Origin: Holdemania massiliensis AP2
Lineage (GTDB): Bacteria; Bacillota_I; Bacilli_A; Erysipelotrichales; Erysipelotrichaceae
Direction: 5' to 3'
NCBI RefSeq assembly: GCF_000327285.1
Contig: NZ_HE998568.1
Span: forward strand, 452,810-516,809
Length of the DNA stretch: 64,000 nt
Shown: one piece after another, positions 15,087 to 23,736 of the stretch
Layout: every line of letters starts with the position of its first letter
Numbering within the stretch: the stretch's first letter is position 1
Made by a program: the position numbers and the translations under genes
Notes under the pieces: generated by a model
Database searches by the model: none
Told to the model about the DNA's origin: nothing
What the model saw: the letters and a program-made list of their open reading frames with translations, nothing else

Positions 15087-16836
<1,750 letters not shown>

Positions 16837-16842
16837 GTTTAG

Positions 16843-16870
16843 ATTATAGCATTTTCAAACTGTTTGTCAA
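16843..16870 (-). promoter_or_regulatory. lysS promoter
   Basis: Minus strand TTGACA (16870-16865), 16-base spacer, TATAAT (16848-16843) with an extended TGC just before the -10. A near-perfect housekeeping sigma promoter placed at the 5' end of the T-box leader. Confidence 0.8.
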
Positions 16871-16991: not shown

Positions 16992-18401
16992 CTAAAACAA
17001 ATCAATGTTTAAGCCCTGCAGATAGAACGCATTCTCCCAGCCTGGATAGTCAACGTTAATATAACTAAAAAGCTGCACATCATGCTCCTGCAATTCTGCG
17101 AGTAAAGTCTCCATGATATCCGAATAATAGGGAATATAGAGTTCAATATTCTGATCAACAAAACGATAGCGGATAGCAACCATCCCGGAAGCTGATTTTA
17201 GTCCTTGGCTGCGGTATCGCCGCTCTGCCTGTTGCTGGGCCGCAACCAAAATCTCCTTTTCTTCCTTTGTTAAGCTCGCCGTATTTTCAACTCTCCAATA
17301 TTGATAATATCCCGACGTTTTTCCTCTCCAGTTATAAATATTAATAAAGTAAACTTCTTCAGCGGAAATATCCTTGGTCATGCCCCAGCCTCCGCTGACT
17401 CGCCATGACCAAAAAATTCCCTGGAGAAACACAAACTCAACCGTTAACATCAGCAGTATCGCTTTGTTGAACTGAATCTTGGAGTAAGACAGAAAGCGGA
17501 TTAACAAATACAAGACCGCGGCCAGAATCACAGAGAGCAGACACTGCTGCGGCCTCACAGCTGTCAGTGATCCCCAAATCATCACCGCGGCTGCGGAAAC
17601 TGCCGGCATCAGTTTAAATACAGCGCTTTGTGTTAACGTTTTATGTTCGATCAACGGTGAATTCTTTGTCATCTGGAAAACCGCAAATCCGCCAGCCAAC
17701 ACATAAACGAGGTCAACGAGCAGGCACATCCCCAATGAAGGAAATGTGGAATCAAGAACTAATCCCTTCGCTGCCAGGGTAAACAATCCCGGCAGACACC
17801 CGAAATCATGCAGCAGCGTCAAGAATTCCTTAAGTTGATAGTGATAGATCACAGTCTTCCGCATCACACTGACGCACGCTGAAACGATGAAGACCGGAGC
17901 CAATGTCCAGACCGCGATGGTCAGCAGCGCCTGAAACAGATTACGGCTGCGCAGAAAGACCCAGGTACAAAAGCATAGGTAAACCAGCGTCGCCATGATC
18001 AGCAGCACGGTTCCCTCAAAAATGGATACGGCTGTTGCAATCTGCCAATGAAGCATCAAAATTCCCATGGTCAGCCAGGCGACCAGATAAGGAAGCAAAA
18101 AGACGATACATCCAACGGTTAACCGCGTCAAAATTAAACTTCGTTTTGTTAAAGGCAGTTGATAGTGATGAATCTTCTCCTCTCGCTTCATCGTAAAGCG
18201 CAGCTGCCGCTGAACCAGAATGATTACAAGCAGCAAGAGATAGATAAAATAAAAGTTAAACAAGAGGCTGGCGTTTTCCTCCATTATTGTTGGAAAACTG
18301 ACGTAGACTAACGGCATGATCAACAAATCCAAAAACATCAAACATAAACATAGTTTGAACTCTTTTTTAAGCATGGATATCAATAATTTCTTGTGGATCA
18401 T
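16992..18401 (-). CDS. ABC-2-type transporter permease
   Basis: 469 residues with about ten hydrophobic segments (for example near residues 20-40, 50-65, 95-145, 160-185, 215-240, 255-300 and 315-335) and a soluble C-terminal domain of about 120 residues facing outward or inward. No sequence motif defines the substrate. It overlaps the stop of the ATPase gene by four bases and is the last gene of a five-gene operon with a YtrA-like repressor, as in the ytr-type systems of Bacillus, where such exporters answer cell-envelope stress. The substrate is unknown. Confidence 0.8.
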   Translation of the reverse strand: MIHKKLLISMLKKEFKLCLCLMFLDLLIMPLVYVSFPTIMEENASLLFNFYFIYLLLLVIILVQRQLRFTMKREEKIHHYQLPLTKRSLILTRLTVGCIVFLLPYLVAWLTMGILMLHWQIATAVSIFEGTVLLIMATLVYLCFCTWVFLRSRNLFQALLTIAVWTLAPVFIVSACVSVMRKTVIYHYQLKEFLTLLHDFGCLPGLFTLAAKGLVLDSTFPSLGMCLLVDLVYVLAGGFAVFQMTKNSPLIEHKTLTQSAVFKLMPAVSAAAVMIWGSLTAVRPQQCLLSVILAAVLYLLIRFLSYSKIQFNKAILLMLTVEFVFLQGIFWSWRVSGGWGMTKDISAEEVYFINIYNWRGKTSGYYQYWRVENTASLTKEEKEILVAAQQQAERRYRSQGLKSASGMVAIRYRFVDQNIELYIPYYSDIMETLLAELQEHDVQLFSYINVDYPGWENAFYLQGLNIDLF

Positions 18402-19282
18402 CGCAGTTCCTCCCGTTTTTCTAGCTGGGCCAAGAATATTTCTTCCAAAGTGCAGTCAAACACTTCAAGAATGACCGGACAGTATTTCCACAGCTTCGCT
18501 TCGACCTCATCTTGACGGCCGCGCAGAATCGCCTGAGCCATCCGGGAATGAATTTCCAGCTTTAACACCTCAAAATCTTGGAATATCGCGGGATCGATCG
18601 GATGATCAAAAGCCAGGTGAACTTTAACCAGCTCCTGCTGCGTTTGAAACAGAGAATTTTGATGCAGGATCCGCTTGTTATCCAACAAGGCATATTCATC
18701 ACAGAAGTTCTCCAAATCCCCTAACCGGTGCGAAGTTAAGATCGAAGTCATGCCTTCCTCAATCGTCTGCGCTGCCAGCTGACCTTGAAGCAGCCGCCGG
18801 GCAAAGGGATCCAATCCATCAAATACCTCGTCGATCAGAAGCAGTTCTGGATGCACCGCCAATCCCGCAGCCATCAGAACCTGCCGTTTCATCCCCTTAC
18901 TGAAAGCGGAGAACGGCAATTCAGAATCCAGGTTTAACTGATTTAATAAATCATAGAATAAAGCCGGATCTGCCGCTGGGTAAAATAAGGATAAATAGCC
19001 AATCAAGTCCCGGACATTTTCCGACTGTGCGAACACTGGTTCATCCTGAACTAGGAAGATCTTTTGTTTGACCTCTGGATGATCGAGCACTGGCTGGTCT
19101 TTCCATGTAATCTTTCCTTCATCGACAGGAATCGCTCCGCTGACGCAGTGCAGCAGCGTCGATTTTCCTGCCCCGTTAATCCCAATCAAACCTAAAATTG
19201 AACCAGATGCTAATTCTAAGCTGCAATGTTCCAATACTGTTTGCAAGTCATAGACCTTGCGGCAATTTTCCACCCTTAACAT
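18398..19282 (-). CDS. ABC transporter ATP-binding protein
   Basis: 294 residues. Walker A GINGAGKST (near residue 37), Q-loop region LVQDEPVF, signature FSKGMKRQVLMAAGLA, Walker B LLLIDEVFDGLD and a switch histidine in TSHRLGD are all visible, so the ATPase is intact. The signature reads FSKGM rather than LSGGQ, common in ABC-2 exporters. Its start overlaps the end of the GntR gene by seven bases and its end overlaps the permease gene, giving tight coupling. It powers the adjacent permease. Confidence 0.93.
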   Translation of the reverse strand: MLRVENCRKVYDLQTVLEHCSLELASGSILGLIGINGAGKSTLLHCVSGAIPVDEGKITWKDQPVLDHPEVKQKIFLVQDEPVFAQSENVRDLIGYLSLFYPAADPALFYDLLNQLNLDSELPFSAFSKGMKRQVLMAAGLAVHPELLLIDEVFDGLDPFARRLLQGQLAAQTIEEGMTSILTSHRLGDLENFCDEYALLDNKRILHQNSLFQTQQELVKVHLAFDHPIDPAIFQDFEVLKLEIHSRMAQAILRGRQDEVEAKLWKYCPVILEVFDCTLEEIFLAQLEKREELR

Positions 19283-19659
19283 CTTGATCCCTGCTTTCCT
19301 TCATACACTTCCTTGACGATCTTCAACGCTTCTTCTTCGGATATCCCCGTTTCCTGACATTGAATGACAGCCTTTCGGAATTCTTCCTTCTGCCTTAAGC
19401 ATAAAATAGCATGCACATCGTGGTCGCTGACAAAGAAGCCTTTCTTCGGCTCTGTAATCAAAATACCTTCGTCCTCCAGCTCCTGATACGTTTTCACAAC
19501 AGTGTTGGGATTGATCCCCAGCTCCCGCGCCAAAATCCGCACAGAGGGCATCCGATCCAACGGCTGCAGGACACCTAGGCTGACATACCGGATAATTTGC
19601 TCCTTCAGCTGTTCATAGATCGGCTGACGGCTGCGTGGATCGATTGTAAACATTGTCAT
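19276..19659 (-). CDS. GntR family regulator, YtrA subfamily
   Basis: 127 residues: an N-terminal winged helix (QPIYEQLKEQIIRYVSLGVL, then MPSVRILARELGINPNTVVKTY) and a short helical C-terminal tail without a ligand domain. That size is diagnostic of YtrA-type GntR proteins, which repress operons for ABC exporters induced by wall-active compounds. It starts within the stop of the second S41 gene (ATGA overlap). A dyad near the operon promoter (22629-22651) is its probable operator. Confidence 0.92.
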   Translation of the reverse strand: MTMFTIDPRSRQPIYEQLKEQIIRYVSLGVLQPLDRMPSVRILARELGINPNTVVKTYQELEDEGILITEPKKGFFVSDHDVHAILCLRQKEEFRKAVIQCQETGISEEEALKIVKEVYEGKQGSRC

Positions 19660-21110
19660 TCTCCTGTTCGTTCCTTGATCTGATTTTGCAGCATCGCAAT
19701 CGCCTCATTAAGTGCAGTATCTTCCCCCATCAATAAGTCTTCCGGTGATGTCCATATTTCGATATCTGGCTGGACACCGCGATTCCAAAAAGGCTGCTTA
19801 TCCGGCGAAAAGCTTTGATTCACCGACAAAGAATAAGCGCTGCCGTCGGATAAATTGACACGGCAGTTATTGCCCATTGCGCCATAGGTTGTCAGCCCCA
19901 TCAACGTAAAATTATCAAGCAATTTCGCAGTAGCGGCGAACATTTCAGTGGCAGAAGCTGAAAATTGCGAGGTTAGGATCACAGCGGGCTTATCCAGAAT
20001 CTGTGTTGTTAAAATCGGATGAGGCTCAACTTCCATTTCCTCCAGTATCGTTTCCACCTCCTCATTAGCGCCATAATATTCGTGCTTCATCATTCGCATT
20101 GCCTTTTGATTCATGTCGCTTCCAGAATAGAAGATCGTGTTCGTATCGTCCCCATAGGGAACCCAGGAAGAGTGAAATTCAGAATCTAAATTGTATAAAG
20201 GCGGGATGGGTGCCTGAGAAAAAGACTGCAGGATAATTAAGGCATTTGTAAAATTACCACCGCTGTTATTTCTCACATCAAAAATAACACCTTGATACTG
20301 ATCTAAGATTGGAATCACTTGATTTTCATAAAGATTAAAGCTTTGACCAACGAAAGTTGAAATTTCCACATAAACAAGATCTTTATTAATCTCATAAACA
20401 AAATAAGGACTGGAATGAAGAAGAGCTTTCTTATTGGACAACGCCGATGCCCTCAATTGATTCAAATAAATGGAACCTGATTTTTCATAGCAGCCTTTTA
20501 ACTCTAAGGTTTCCCCTTGCGGCGTAAGCCATTTCAACGTGATTTCTTTCCCTTTTTCATCTTTTAAAAATTGTCTTACGGTTTCACTGCGATGTGCAGG
20601 GTTCGTTTGTACCGGGACATATTTTTCAAAATGCTCCAGGATATAATCCAAGGCCGGCTGATCTTCAACCTCAATCAATTCGCTGCCTAGCGGCACTTCA
20701 AAATCTAAGCTAGTTGCTTTCAGAAACAGCCGACCATCAAGATCTTCTAAATCAAAAGGCAAATAGGCCTGATTAAGCCTAAGATCGGAAGCCGGAATAA
20801 AGCTGGTATGTCCATCGTGAAGCAGAGCGACAAAATCCCGCATGGCATCGACATATTCATCATCATTCTTAGCATTCATCACCCGCGGCAAAAACTCCTG
20901 ATATTTTGCATCCCAATCAAAATCTTCCGGCATTTCATTCCAGTAGCCATAATAATATTGGGCTGTTGACCAGATGTCAGACAATGCGGCAATGCGTTCT
21001 TCCACTGTCTTTGTGCATTGAGCTTGTTCTGGTTTTTCTAAGTCCTGCGGCTTTTCTGAACACCCTGCCAACAGAAGCATCACAATCAGATATAATATTA
21101 ACTTTTTCAT
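19656..21110 (-). CDS. S41 family peptidase lipoprotein (copy 2)
   Basis: 484 residues. Signal peptide with lipobox LLAGC at about residue 17 places it on the outer face of the membrane. The C-terminal half is an S41 (tail-specific protease/tricorn core-like) domain: FDVRNNSGGNFTNALI, then LTSQFSASATEMFAA with the likely catalytic serine, then LMGLTTYGAMGNN. An N-terminal SDIWSTAQYYYGYW helix region and a LLHDGHTSF motif are shared with its upstream paralogue. The substrate is unknown; co-transcription with an envelope-stress type ABC system suggests processing of a secreted or bound peptide. Confidence 0.87.
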   Translation of the reverse strand: MKKLILYLIVMLLLAGCSEKPQDLEKPEQAQCTKTVEERIAALSDIWSTAQYYYGYWNEMPEDFDWDAKYQEFLPRVMNAKNDDEYVDAMRDFVALLHDGHTSFIPASDLRLNQAYLPFDLEDLDGRLFLKATSLDFEVPLGSELIEVEDQPALDYILEHFEKYVPVQTNPAHRSETVRQFLKDEKGKEITLKWLTPQGETLELKGCYEKSGSIYLNQLRASALSNKKALLHSSPYFVYEINKDLVYVEISTFVGQSFNLYENQVIPILDQYQGVIFDVRNNSGGNFTNALIILQSFSQAPIPPLYNLDSEFHSSWVPYGDDTNTIFYSGSDMNQKAMRMMKHEYYGANEEVETILEEMEVEPHPILTTQILDKPAVILTSQFSASATEMFAATAKLLDNFTLMGLTTYGAMGNNCRVNLSDGSAYSLSVNQSFSPDKQPFWNRGVQPDIEIWTSPEDLLMGEDTALNEAIAMLQNQIKERTGE

Positions 21111-21131
21111 TTTGCATCCTTTCCTGCTTTT

Positions 21132-22577
21132 TTAATCTTTTTCTTTTTGTAAGGTTTCCTGTAATGTTTTAATTGCAGTGTTAAGCACGGTGTCTTCTCG
21201 ATTTTTCAAGTCTTCAAGGGTCTGCCAAATTTCAATATCAGGAATTGCGCCATGATTCCATATGCAATATCCTTCAGGACTATACGCATTATCCACAGAT
21301 AAAGTATATAAACTGCCGTCCGGAAGTTCTACACTATGATTATTTCCTGTTGCGCCATGTGTTGTCAGACCCATTACCGTGAAATTTTTTATCACCTTGG
21401 CTTTCGCTGCAAAGGTATCCGCGGCGGAACCAGTTTGATCCGAGGTTAAGACCACAACCGGCATGGTCAGCACTTTCGGCACATCCATCGTATACCAGTT
21501 ATCTGCCTGGCTTAATACATATTCTGACAATTCTTCTTCCATGCCATAATAAGCATGTTTCATCATTTTTTGTGCCGCTGACTTCGTTAGATCATCGGTT
21601 TGAAAAGCTACATTATCCGAAGCATAAGGAACCATTGAGGAAATGAAAACAGAACTAAAACTGAAATTAGAAGGAACACCCTCTGCTGATAAAGACTGCA
21701 GAATAACGTCGCCATGATAAGAATTTCCACCGCGATTCTGCCTGACATCAAGAATACAGCCGCGATAATTTTCAAGCTGCGGTAAGATTATCTTCGTAAA
21801 CGTATTATCCATTCCGCCGCTGGAAAAGGATCGAATTTCAATATAAAGAATATCATCATTGACCGGTGCCACGGTATACGTTTGTGAATTATACAGAATG
21901 CTATCAAAACTCATTTTCACTGAAAGTTCCTCAGTAATGGAGTTTTTTTGCTGACTGTACTCCAATTGGATTTCCTGCATGGAATTGTCTTCTGCTTTAA
22001 ATTGAAGCGTAATTTTTTTGCCAATATAATCACTTTTGAACTGCTCTAAAGTTTCGCGCGTATGGGCGGGTTCTGTCAGAACCGGTACAAATTTACTATA
22101 ATTGGACAAGATATAATCCAGAGCGGGTTCATGATTAACGCTGACCAATTCACTGCCCAGCTCAACATCAACTTTGTCATTTTTTCCAACTAAATAGATC
22201 GTCCCGTCAAGGTATTCCAACCGAATTGGCAGACTTCCCTTATTCGATACATATCCCTGAAATGGAATATATTGAGTATGCCCATCATGCAGCAATGCTG
22301 TAAACTCCCGCATCAAATCAACATATTCATCATCATTCTTTGCTTCCCTCACACGCGGCAGAAATTGATCGAAAGCTGCATCCCAGTCTACAATTTCTGA
22401 CAAGGATTCCCAATATCCATAATAATTCTTAGCTGAGTACCAGACTTCAGCCAAGGTCCGTATCCGTAAATCTTCATTAATTGTGCATTGTTCTTCTTCC
22501 TGCGGCGGCTTCATTTTTGTCCCACATCCGCAAAGCAGCAAGACCACTGTCAAAATCACAAATAATTTTCTTTTCAT
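21132..22577 (-). CDS. S41 family peptidase lipoprotein (copy 1)
   Basis: About 481 residues from the ATG at 22577, selected because GGGGGA lies upstream and the signal peptide (lipobox LLCGC) then starts at residue 1. The architecture equals the next gene: LAEVWYSAKNYYGYW, LLHDGHTQY, DVRQNRGGNSYHGD and the serine-containing LTSDQTGSAADTFAA, followed by MGLTTHGATGNN. An aspartate replaces the glutamate usually found after the active serine segment. First gene of the five-gene operon; tandem duplication with divergence from copy 2 is evident. Confidence 0.87.
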   Translation of the reverse strand: MKRKLFVILTVVLLLCGCGTKMKPPQEEEQCTINEDLRIRTLAEVWYSAKNYYGYWESLSEIVDWDAAFDQFLPRVREAKNDDEYVDLMREFTALLHDGHTQYIPFQGYVSNKGSLPIRLEYLDGTIYLVGKNDKVDVELGSELVSVNHEPALDYILSNYSKFVPVLTEPAHTRETLEQFKSDYIGKKITLQFKAEDNSMQEIQLEYSQQKNSITEELSVKMSFDSILYNSQTYTVAPVNDDILYIEIRSFSSGGMDNTFTKIILPQLENYRGCILDVRQNRGGNSYHGDVILQSLSAEGVPSNFSFSSVFISSMVPYASDNVAFQTDDLTKSAAQKMMKHAYYGMEEELSEYVLSQADNWYTMDVPKVLTMPVVVLTSDQTGSAADTFAAKAKVIKNFTVMGLTTHGATGNNHSVELPDGSLYTLSVDNAYSPEGYCIWNHGAIPDIEIWQTLEDLKNREDTVLNTAIKTLQETLQKEKD

Positions 22578-22628
22578 ATTAATCCCCCAAAGATCGTTAT
22601 ACCCTCCGATCAGCGGCATATCTCCAAT

Positions 22629-22676
22629 CTGTACTATTTATGATAATACAGTATAACACAATTTCAATTTTGTCAA
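22629..22676 (-). promoter_or_regulatory. Promoter and putative YtrA-type operator of the S41-ABC operon
   Basis: Minus strand TTGACA (22676-22671) and TATACT (22655-22650) with a short 15-base spacer. Overlapping the -10 and start region is the dyad CTGTAnTAT-N5-ATAnTACAG (22629-22651), with eight of nine arm positions paired. TACAG/CTGTA-type dyads suit small GntR repressors; the YtrA-like protein of the operon is the candidate. Confidence 0.6.
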
Positions 22677-22690
22677 TTTGAATCAACAAA

Positions 22691-22722
22691 ATAAAAACCA
22701 CTCCTGTACAGGAATGGCTTTT
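22691..22722 (-). terminator. Terminator of hsp33-dusB
   Basis: A nine-pair stem (22696-22704 with 22711-22719, two G-U pairs) around TGTACA, followed on the minus strand by TTTTTATTTTG. It lies just after the dusB stop. Confidence 0.75.
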
Positions 22723-22731
22723 GTATATGTT

Positions 22732-23736
22732 TTAAAATTCCGTTGGAAACAGCCAGTCAAAGTTCCCGCTGACCAACGCCTCTTCATACTGACGCAGCAT
22801 TGACTCTAATTCGGCATAAGCTGTCATTTGATTAATCCGGTCTTTCATCCGATTGGAGTAGGGAATTCCCTGGATGTACCAGCACGCATGCCCGCGCATT
22901 TCCTTCATTCCGATCCGCTCGCCTTTTAACGCGCACAATCGCCGGGCATGTTCCAGCGCGATTTCAAATTTTTCATGATCGCTGACCGGTTTGACCTGAC
23001 CTTCGCCCGATAAAGCCTGAACCAGATCGCGAATCAGCCAGGGATTGCCCAGTACGCCCCGGCCGATCATAATCGCATCAACATGGGTTTCCTCCATCCG
23101 GGCCATCGCCTCTTCGACTGACCGGATATCCCCGTTGCCGATAACCGGAATCGAAACTTTTTCTTTAACCTGTTTAATCCAGCTCCAGTCTGCCTGACCT
23201 TCGTAAAGCTGACTGCGGGTACGGCCATGGACAGCCAGAGCGCTGACCCCAGCCGCTTCCAGGCCCTGCGCCATTTCCAGTACATTGATTGATGAACTAT
23301 CCCAGCCTAAGCGGATCTTGGCTGTAACCGGCTTTTCCACTGCCGCCACAATTTTCCGCACCAGCTGATAGGCTGACTCAGGATCTTTCATCATGGCGCT
23401 GCCGGAACCGGAATTGACCACCTTCGGCACCGGGCATCCCATGTTGATGTCGATCACGTCGCAATCCGTTTTATCCAGCACCTGCGCGGCCTGAATCATC
23501 GAAGCTTCCTCATGGCCGAACAGCTGCATCGCAATCGGATGTTCATCCGGCGCCAGCTGCGTCATCTCCATCGTCTTTTTGTTGGAGTAACAAATCGCCT
23601 TATCGCTGATCATTTCGGTATAGATCAATCCGGCCCCGAATTCATGCGCGATCGTGCGAAACGCCGCATTGGAAATACCCGCCATCGGCGCGATGACAAC
23701 CGGGTTGGCAATTTCCAGATCCCTTATTTTCCACAT
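22732..23736 (-). CDS. dusB: tRNA-dihydrouridine synthase
   Basis: 334 residues, full length for the Dus family. The FMN-binding TIM barrel begins with VVIAPMAGISNAAFRTIAHE; the catalytic cysteine lies in DINMGCPVPKVV (near residue 100); HGRTRSQLYEGQADWSWI and IPVIGNGDI follow. It reduces uridines in tRNA using NADPH and FMN. The start overlaps the end of hsp33 by 13 bases, an arrangement common in Firmicutes. The gene name is by similarity; the exact Dus subtype is inferred from context. Confidence 0.93.
   Translation of the reverse strand: MWKIRDLEIANPVVIAPMAGISNAAFRTIAHEFGAGLIYTEMISDKAICYSNKKTMEMTQLAPDEHPIAMQLFGHEEASMIQAAQVLDKTDCDVIDINMGCPVPKVVNSGSGSAMMKDPESAYQLVRKIVAAVEKPVTAKIRLGWDSSSINVLEMAQGLEAAGVSALAVHGRTRSQLYEGQADWSWIKQVKEKVSIPVIGNGDIRSVEEAMARMEETHVDAIMIGRGVLGNPWLIRDLVQALSGEGQVKPVSDHEKFEIALEHARRLCALKGERIGMKEMRGHACWYIQGIPYSNRMKDRINQMTAYAELESMLRQYEEALVSGNFDWLFPTEF

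Follow-up and report, generated by a model that had tools for sequence, protein, structure and literature searches.

In Holdemania, lipid-anchored proteases of the S41 family are encoded in one operon with a small YtrA-type GntR regulator and an ABC transporter, and the operator predicted over the operon promoter recurs at one other promoter, that of an unlinked lipoprotein gene with a transglutaminase-like domain. The operon architecture and the predicted two-operon regulon are well supported by comparison of genomes within the genus. To our knowledge, most examples of resistance to lantibiotics or host peptides by combined proteolysis and export are two-component, BceAB-type systems, nsr among them. 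In this gut genus a single small YtrA-type repressor appears to control the transporter together with proteases of two folds, and the operator predicts a regulon of two loci. What seems new here is the occurrence of NSR-like proteases as an accessory to a YtrA-type ABC operon, a predicted protease regulon of two folds, and an S41 core that appears to have been exchanged; open-licence PMC papers searched for YtrA/GntR, S41, transglutaminase, nisin resistance and Holdemania yielded no description of this arrangement.

Operon layout, promoter and predicted S41 catalytic type

All five genes are open reading frames on the minus strand of the window (the whole 64,000-nt stretch of DNA that was analysed), lying between dus (22732-23736) and lysS (15087-16577) in the order S41b, S41a, GntR regulator, ABC ATPase and membrane subunit (Table 1). 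The two S41 proteins, 44% identical to each other, match Peptidase_S41 (PF03572, E 4e-23 and 2e-24) and carry at the N-terminus a signal of lipoprotein type whose last residue is Cys (LLAGC, LLCGC); the ATPase matches ABC_tran (E 2e-21) and the regulator GntR (PF00392, E 7e-13, 48.5 bits against a cut-off of 27), and the membrane subunit has no match in Pfam or NCBIfam. AlphaFold2 models were of low confidence, with a pLDDT of 46.8 for S41a (three sequences) and 42.2 for the membrane subunit (two sequences). The original prediction of two membrane-anchored S41 proteases, a YtrA-like regulator and an ABC pair in a single operon is borne out by the reading frames, Pfam matches and lipoprotein signals, and by retention of the unit within the genus. 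Its further claim that all genes are coupled by overlaps holds for gntR/ABC (7 nt) and ABC/membrane subunit (4 nt) but not for the two S41 genes, which are 21 nt apart, nor for S41a and gntR, which overlap only with the first ATG as start and are separated by 2 nt if translation begins at 19653, after AGGAG. For S41b, the most likely start is 22577 (after GGGGG) rather than 22619.

Table 1. Positions in the window of the operon genes, promoter elements and neighbouring palindrome.
Feature	Position	Strand	Basis or remark
S41b, promoter-proximal S41 lipoprotein resembling the Ser-His type, 481 aa	21132..22577	-	ORF, Pfam, alignment
S41a, second S41 lipoprotein, 484 aa, with conserved His101 (HDGHT) and Ser386 (SASATE)	19656..21110	-	ORF, Pfam, alignment
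YtrA-type GntR regulator, 125 aa from the better-placed start	19276..19653 (19659 if first ATG)	-	
ABC ATPase with Walker A GINGAGKS, Walker B LLLIDE and signature FSKG	18398..19282	-	Pfam, motifs
ABC membrane subunit, nine TM-like segments, then a C-terminal soluble domain of ~135 aa	16992..18401	-	
-35 element TTGACA	22671..22676	-	17 nt from -10
-10 element TACTGT	22648..22653	-	overlaps left half-site of dyad
Operator dyad CTGTA-N13-TACAG	22629..22651		predicted YtrA-type binding site
Terminator-like palindrome of dus, a neighbour outside the system	22693..22722	-	T run; stem aligned in sister genomes

The regulator has the sequence features of the YtrA subfamily. It is small, about 125 aa, and consists of a GntR HTH and a short C-terminal part, and its gene is joined to that of an ABC transporter by the 7-nt overlap. 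Members of the subfamily have widely spaced half-sites in a long operator dyad (about 24 bp) at their own promoters; the dyad found here, a predicted operator, spans 23 bp and covers the -10 element. The promoter reads TTGACA-17-TACTGT, and the dyad, CTGTATTATCATAAATAGTACAG, spans the -10 element and the expected start site. It matches CTGTANTATNNNNNATANTACAG perfectly, a pattern found 0.07 times per shuffled window with up to three mismatches, and the promoter alignment shows it kept in two sister genomes, which upholds the earlier claim of a dyad over the promoter. According to the cited passage, Bacillus subtilis YtrA binds AGTGTA-13bp-TACACT (PMC8060467); the gap of 13 nt is the same in the dyad described here, with half-sites of CTGTA. 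A second palindrome, directly 3' of dus and followed by a T run, was ruled out as an operator and is read from that position as the dus terminator. On the far side of the operon, lysS has a T-box leader at 16619-16832 on the minus strand (RF00230, 91.6 bits, slightly below the gathering score of 93) with a promoter, TTGACA-16-TATAAT, at 16843-16870; the T-box is unrelated to the operon. A role in phage defence was also considered, and four of four proteins gave no PADLOC match.

In the four S41 copies aligned, Ser386 and His101 are invariant, and Ala411, likewise Ala in all four, aligns to the Lys of the CtpB FGKG segment. We take this Lys to be catalytic in S41A C-terminal processing peptidases (Ctp), and its replacement in every copy argues that the Holdemania S41 proteins are not Ser-Lys Ctp enzymes. 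Judging from their aligned residues, they look like the Ser-His kind, comprising NSR and, we presume, tricorn and CPAF. The best PDB profile matches are S41 proteins of Bacteroides (4l8k, which we take to come from that genus, E 4e-20), followed by CtpB, tricorn and NSR (4y68, E 9.5e-7). The tricorn, CPAF and Bacteroides peptidases (4l8k, 8vcb, 1k32, 3dja) are among the best S41 matches, with the Ser motif aligned and, in 4l8k and 8vcb, the DGH motif as well; we know of none in a YtrA-ABC operon. Unlike CPAF, the Holdemania proteins fall below the cut-off of the chlamydial model (NCBIfam NF033424; 61 and 41 bits against 250).

The nearest characterised design is NSR with NsrFP, and NSR has been described as a Ser-His S41 protease (PMC4698656, in the part cited). 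The NSR-family S41 core is present (PF03572, with 4y68 matched as above), but membership in the NSR family does not follow. The NSR motif TASSAEM is replaced by SASATEM, GSAADTF, SASTSET and GSAADTF in the four copies, which preserve the pattern and not the motif, and the NSR-family operon of BceAB-type nsrFP with nsrRK gives way to a YtrA-type GntR gene and a membrane subunit of no matched family. With the N-terminal half alone, NSR ranks fourth at E 0.0049, a weak match; the alignment to NSR leaves Ser236 outside and does not pair His98 with His101, and none of the NSR alignments obtained covers both residues.

Distribution of the operon and history of the S41 core

The order dus-S41-gntR-ABC-mem-lysS is kept at the same position between dus and lysS in three of the four Holdemania genomes, with two S41 genes in the window genome (G000) and one each in G078 and G104; the fourth, G035, has neither an S41a match nor a match to the membrane subunit. 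The survey for the predicted S41-S41-GntR-ABC neighbourhood recovered S41-gntR-ABC in these genomes and the tandem in the window genome only, and the tandem pair is not essential, as two species have a single S41 gene. A wider contig scan for the locus gave a sole match, in Holdemania sp. Marseille-P2844.

Beyond Holdemania the S41 type is close to absent. At E 1e-14 it was found in 3/315 genomes of the order, all of them Holdemania; at E 1e-30 in 2/392 genomes of the phylum, namely the window's own and, with a 26%-identical protein, G280; and at E 1e-10 in 4/145 genomes of the family, the three Holdemania plus G036, where a Ctp-type gene matches in part. An S41 gene of any kind is nearly universal in the family (134 of 140 genomes, mostly one high-scoring Ctp-type match), and this housekeeping Ctp-type gene is separate from the operon. 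No GntR match at E 1e-3 was found in any of 15 stretches surveyed, comprising 12 among the lower-scoring extra S41 matches listed (Ctp-type fragments in G072 and G105 left aside), the fourth S41 gene of the window's own genome, G280, and a membrane-subunit match, G009:C84. Five plasmid records match S41a weakly.

The original prediction depended on the proteases staying linked to the ABC pair in homologous loci. They do so in all three orthologous loci, but a paralogous YtrA-ABC-membrane operon of the window genome (locus L021) and a distant one in G090, of another genus (L096), contain no S41 gene. This argues that the protease is a lineage accessory, added to an otherwise ordinary YtrA-type unit. 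In G078 the paralogous operon (L090:6152-8880) has its membrane-subunit gene twice in tandem, the copies being 49% and 35% identical to the single one of the window genome.

Comparison of the sister species G078 and G104 points to an exchange within the protease gene. From dus into lysS, 30 of 35 segments of 200 nt are 89-99% identical in nucleotide sequence, and the remaining five, all within the S41 gene (L018:9420-10419), are 57-81% identical; the ABC ATPases are 96% and the membrane subunits 92% identical. The divergence sets in downstream of His101 and is over before the stop codon, and dS is 0.18 in alignment columns 32-160, 2.5 in columns 241-455 and 0.14 in the last 36. A raised dS is not what selection acting only on the protein would produce, and the core has therefore, by this comparison, been replaced by diverged homologous sequence, that is, swapped between the sister species. 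The G104 core is about equally distant from S41a and S41b and, on these distances, is a third core type. The swap suggests that the substrate specificity of surface S41 proteases may be exchanged as a module.

The single S41 gene of G078 and G104 itself looks composite: its first 30 columns are 54-61% identical to S41b and 28-31% to S41a, and the rest is S41a-like, a break reached in 0/2000 label shuffles for G078 and 2/2000 for G104. Since the b-like stretch of about 30 residues is joined to an a-like remainder, we tentatively favour an older tandem that would have collapsed by recombination in the single-gene species over a duplication in the window lineage.

The second predicted operator

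As a bare pattern, CTGTA-N13-TACAG occurs at 10 places in the four genus genomes (strands counted once; G000 4, G078 2, G104 3, G035 1) and is not significant by itself, because a backward control gives similar counts (3, 2, 2 and 2). When an AT-rich centre is required and at most one mismatch allowed, exactly six matches are obtained, two in each operon-bearing genome, one at the S41 promoter and one at a second promoter; matches with two or three mismatches are no more frequent than in the control. The gene behind this second promoter is unlinked and encodes a lipoprotein (G000:C1:260638-261777; loci L054, L055 and L056), and the site lies at an equal place in all three. The S41 and lipoprotein promoters are 83-97% identical in the operator region and only 23-30% in the upstream 77 nt. 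Aligned and read by eye, all six promoters, two from each genome, contain TTGnnn-17-TACTGT.

In all three genomes the lipoprotein has a transglutaminase-like domain above the Pfam cut-off (PF01841, Transglut_core) with invariant Cys227, His261 and Asp278, the Cys-His-Asp set that marks the transglutaminase-like superfamily. Its N-terminal part (L054:8624-9778, residues 20-160) has no family match and varies faster than the catalytic part. Within the genus it occurs in the same three of four genomes as the operon and only there, a co-occurrence that is weak on its own because the three are close relatives. The presence of the second operator in all three predicts a regulon of two operons and two protease folds, and such an operator offers a route to targets of YtrA-type regulators beyond their own transporter. 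Transglutaminase-like genes of G090 and G113 were rejected as orthologues, no lipoprotein signal being seen in their translations. The G090 gene lies on the other strand from a nearby YtrA-ABC operon, beside an HTH gene, and was not counted as support. That YtrA-ABC-membrane operon (L096:7800-13530; other genus, same family) has CTGTA/TACAG half-sites and lies about 2 kb from the gene, which lacks a signal peptide; the proximity is possibly coincidence.

Each operon-bearing genome encodes five YtrA-like regulators (E 1e-15), and the second site might be served by one of the others. The closest paralogue of the operon's regulator (C1:315461) has the same TACAG half-site at its own promoter and a similar DNA-binding region; if it acted at the second site, the transglutaminase-like lipoprotein would belong to a separate system. 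We judge this quite unlikely: the paralogue promoter carries TACAG direct repeats in a 9-nt phase and no CTGTA-N13-TACAG dyad in any of the three genomes, and the dyad, with its AT-rich centre and at most one mismatch, is confined to the S41 and lipoprotein promoters. For this reason the operon's own regulator is the favoured candidate at the second site. In the paralogous operon itself (L021:4405-7037, the G000:C1:315461 region), which also comprises regulator, ABC and membrane-subunit genes, there are four such direct half-sites, one of which is degenerate in G078. Another YtrA-like regulator (C1:686703 type; L092, L097, L098) has a different conserved promoter dyad, GTATATACTGTATATATAC, in three genomes.

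Proposed peptide defence and competing mechanisms

The system may be an inducible envelope defence against membrane-active peptides, a surface shield that cuts and expels them; we regard the case for this as evenly balanced. The steps that we infer, namely repression, inducer, substrate, catalytic activity and direction of export, would run as follows. The YtrA-type repressor would sit on the dyad over the -10 element of its own operon and of the unlinked lipoprotein gene, until it was released by a bacteriocin, lantibiotic or host defence peptide, or by the envelope stress that such a peptide causes. The lipid-anchored S41 proteases and the transglutaminase-fold lipoprotein would then act on the peptide outside the cell, at its surface, by cutting or modifying it, and the ABC transporter would remove the peptide from the membrane.

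Several observations favour the defence reading. The operon and its promoter are kept in three of four genus genomes; the operator recurs over the lipoprotein promoter in the same three; the lipoprotein occurs in the genus only where the operon does; Ser386 and His101, and Cys227, His261 and Asp278, are invariant; and the S41 core swap fits a changing substrate. The cut-and-export step is suggested by analogy to NSR, which matches by profile and which, in the parts cited, cleaves nisin and is encoded in one operon together with an ABC exporter (PMC4698656, PMC5786555). The peptide-sensing step is modelled on the YtrA-type regulators ClnR and PmtR, described in the cited passages as binding LL-37 and PSM peptides, respectively (PMC6117091, PMC5080381). 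Against the defence reading, the cited part of a B. subtilis study reports no consistent antibiotic phenotype upon loss or overexpression of ytr (PMC12772383), and the NSR match is weak in the N-terminal half, with Bacteroides S41 proteins and CtpB scoring better. The earlier interpretation as a whole is partly supported; its cutting and exporting, or sensing, of peptides at the envelope is a reading that we infer.

Envelope quality control and cell-wall remodelling, in which the proteases would clear damaged surface proteins under stress and the ABC unit act in wall homeostasis, is an unlikely explanation, yet one of some weight. A wall-homeostasis role has been proposed for YtrBCDEF, and the passages cited report a thicker wall in B. 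subtilis overexpressing Ytr and induction of the operon by wall antibiotics (PMC8060467); the separate housekeeping Ctp-type gene would be consistent with a protease set reserved for stress. However, quality-control substrates would favour a conserved core, and here the core is replaced, with dS of 2.5 against 0.14-0.18 at the gene ends; moreover, this S41 type is absent from all searched genomes of the order outside the genus. S41 and transglutaminase-like enzymes commonly process specific substrates, which would also suit lipoproteins that trim a self-made peptide or signal exported by the ABC transporter, as in peptide maturation systems. Peptide exporters of the Pmt type are indeed placed under a YtrA-type regulator in the cited passages (PMC5080381). 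Processing of a self-peptide is nevertheless rather improbable: the operon flanks (29-57 aa) and the second promoter (23-53 aa) hold only chance-like reading frames, no convincing peptide gene was seen within the operon or at either promoter, and the S41 core differs between sister species whose transporters are nearly identical.

Taken in its full form, the defence reading describes a one-component regulon of two loci whose surface proteases have unrelated folds, one of the S41 serine type and the other of the transglutaminase-like cysteine type. Its S41 catalytic core would be a module open to exchange, having undergone copying, collapse and swapping between species, with the regulator, the transporter, the lipid anchor and the N-terminal part that bears the His all fixed. 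This combination is put forward tentatively. If true, it would amount to a proteolytic shield that can evolve to match whichever bacteriocins or host peptides each gut lineage meets.

Known systems share parts of this design. Like the operon described here, NSR-NsrFP-NsrRK of Streptococcus agalactiae, as far as the cited reports go, sets a membrane-anchored Ser-His-type S41 protease (PDB 4y68) beside an ABC transporter. It differs in two-component rather than YtrA-type control, in a BceAB-type rather than YtrB-like transporter, in having one protease with a transmembrane instead of a lipid anchor, and in that those reports mention no transglutaminase-like partner such as the one predicted in Holdemania. 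The B. subtilis ytrGABCDEF operon, in the parts of PMC8060467 and PMC12772383 cited, likewise contains a YtrA-type repressor gene within an ABC operon, a 13-nt half-site gap and a regulon of two operons (ytr and ywoBCD), but no S41 protease; its half-sites are AGTGTA instead of CTGTA, and its second target encodes a membrane protein, a hydrolase and an MFS transporter instead of a transglutaminase-like lipoprotein. ClnRAB of Clostridioides difficile and PmtR-PmtABCD of Staphylococcus aureus also pair a YtrA-type regulator with an ABC transporter and respond to LL-37 and PSMs, respectively; unlike the Holdemania operon, they are described in the cited passages with no protease. The direct TACAG repeats of the paralogous L021 operon resemble the tandem-repeat site of C. 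difficile clnR, as that site is presented in the cited passage.
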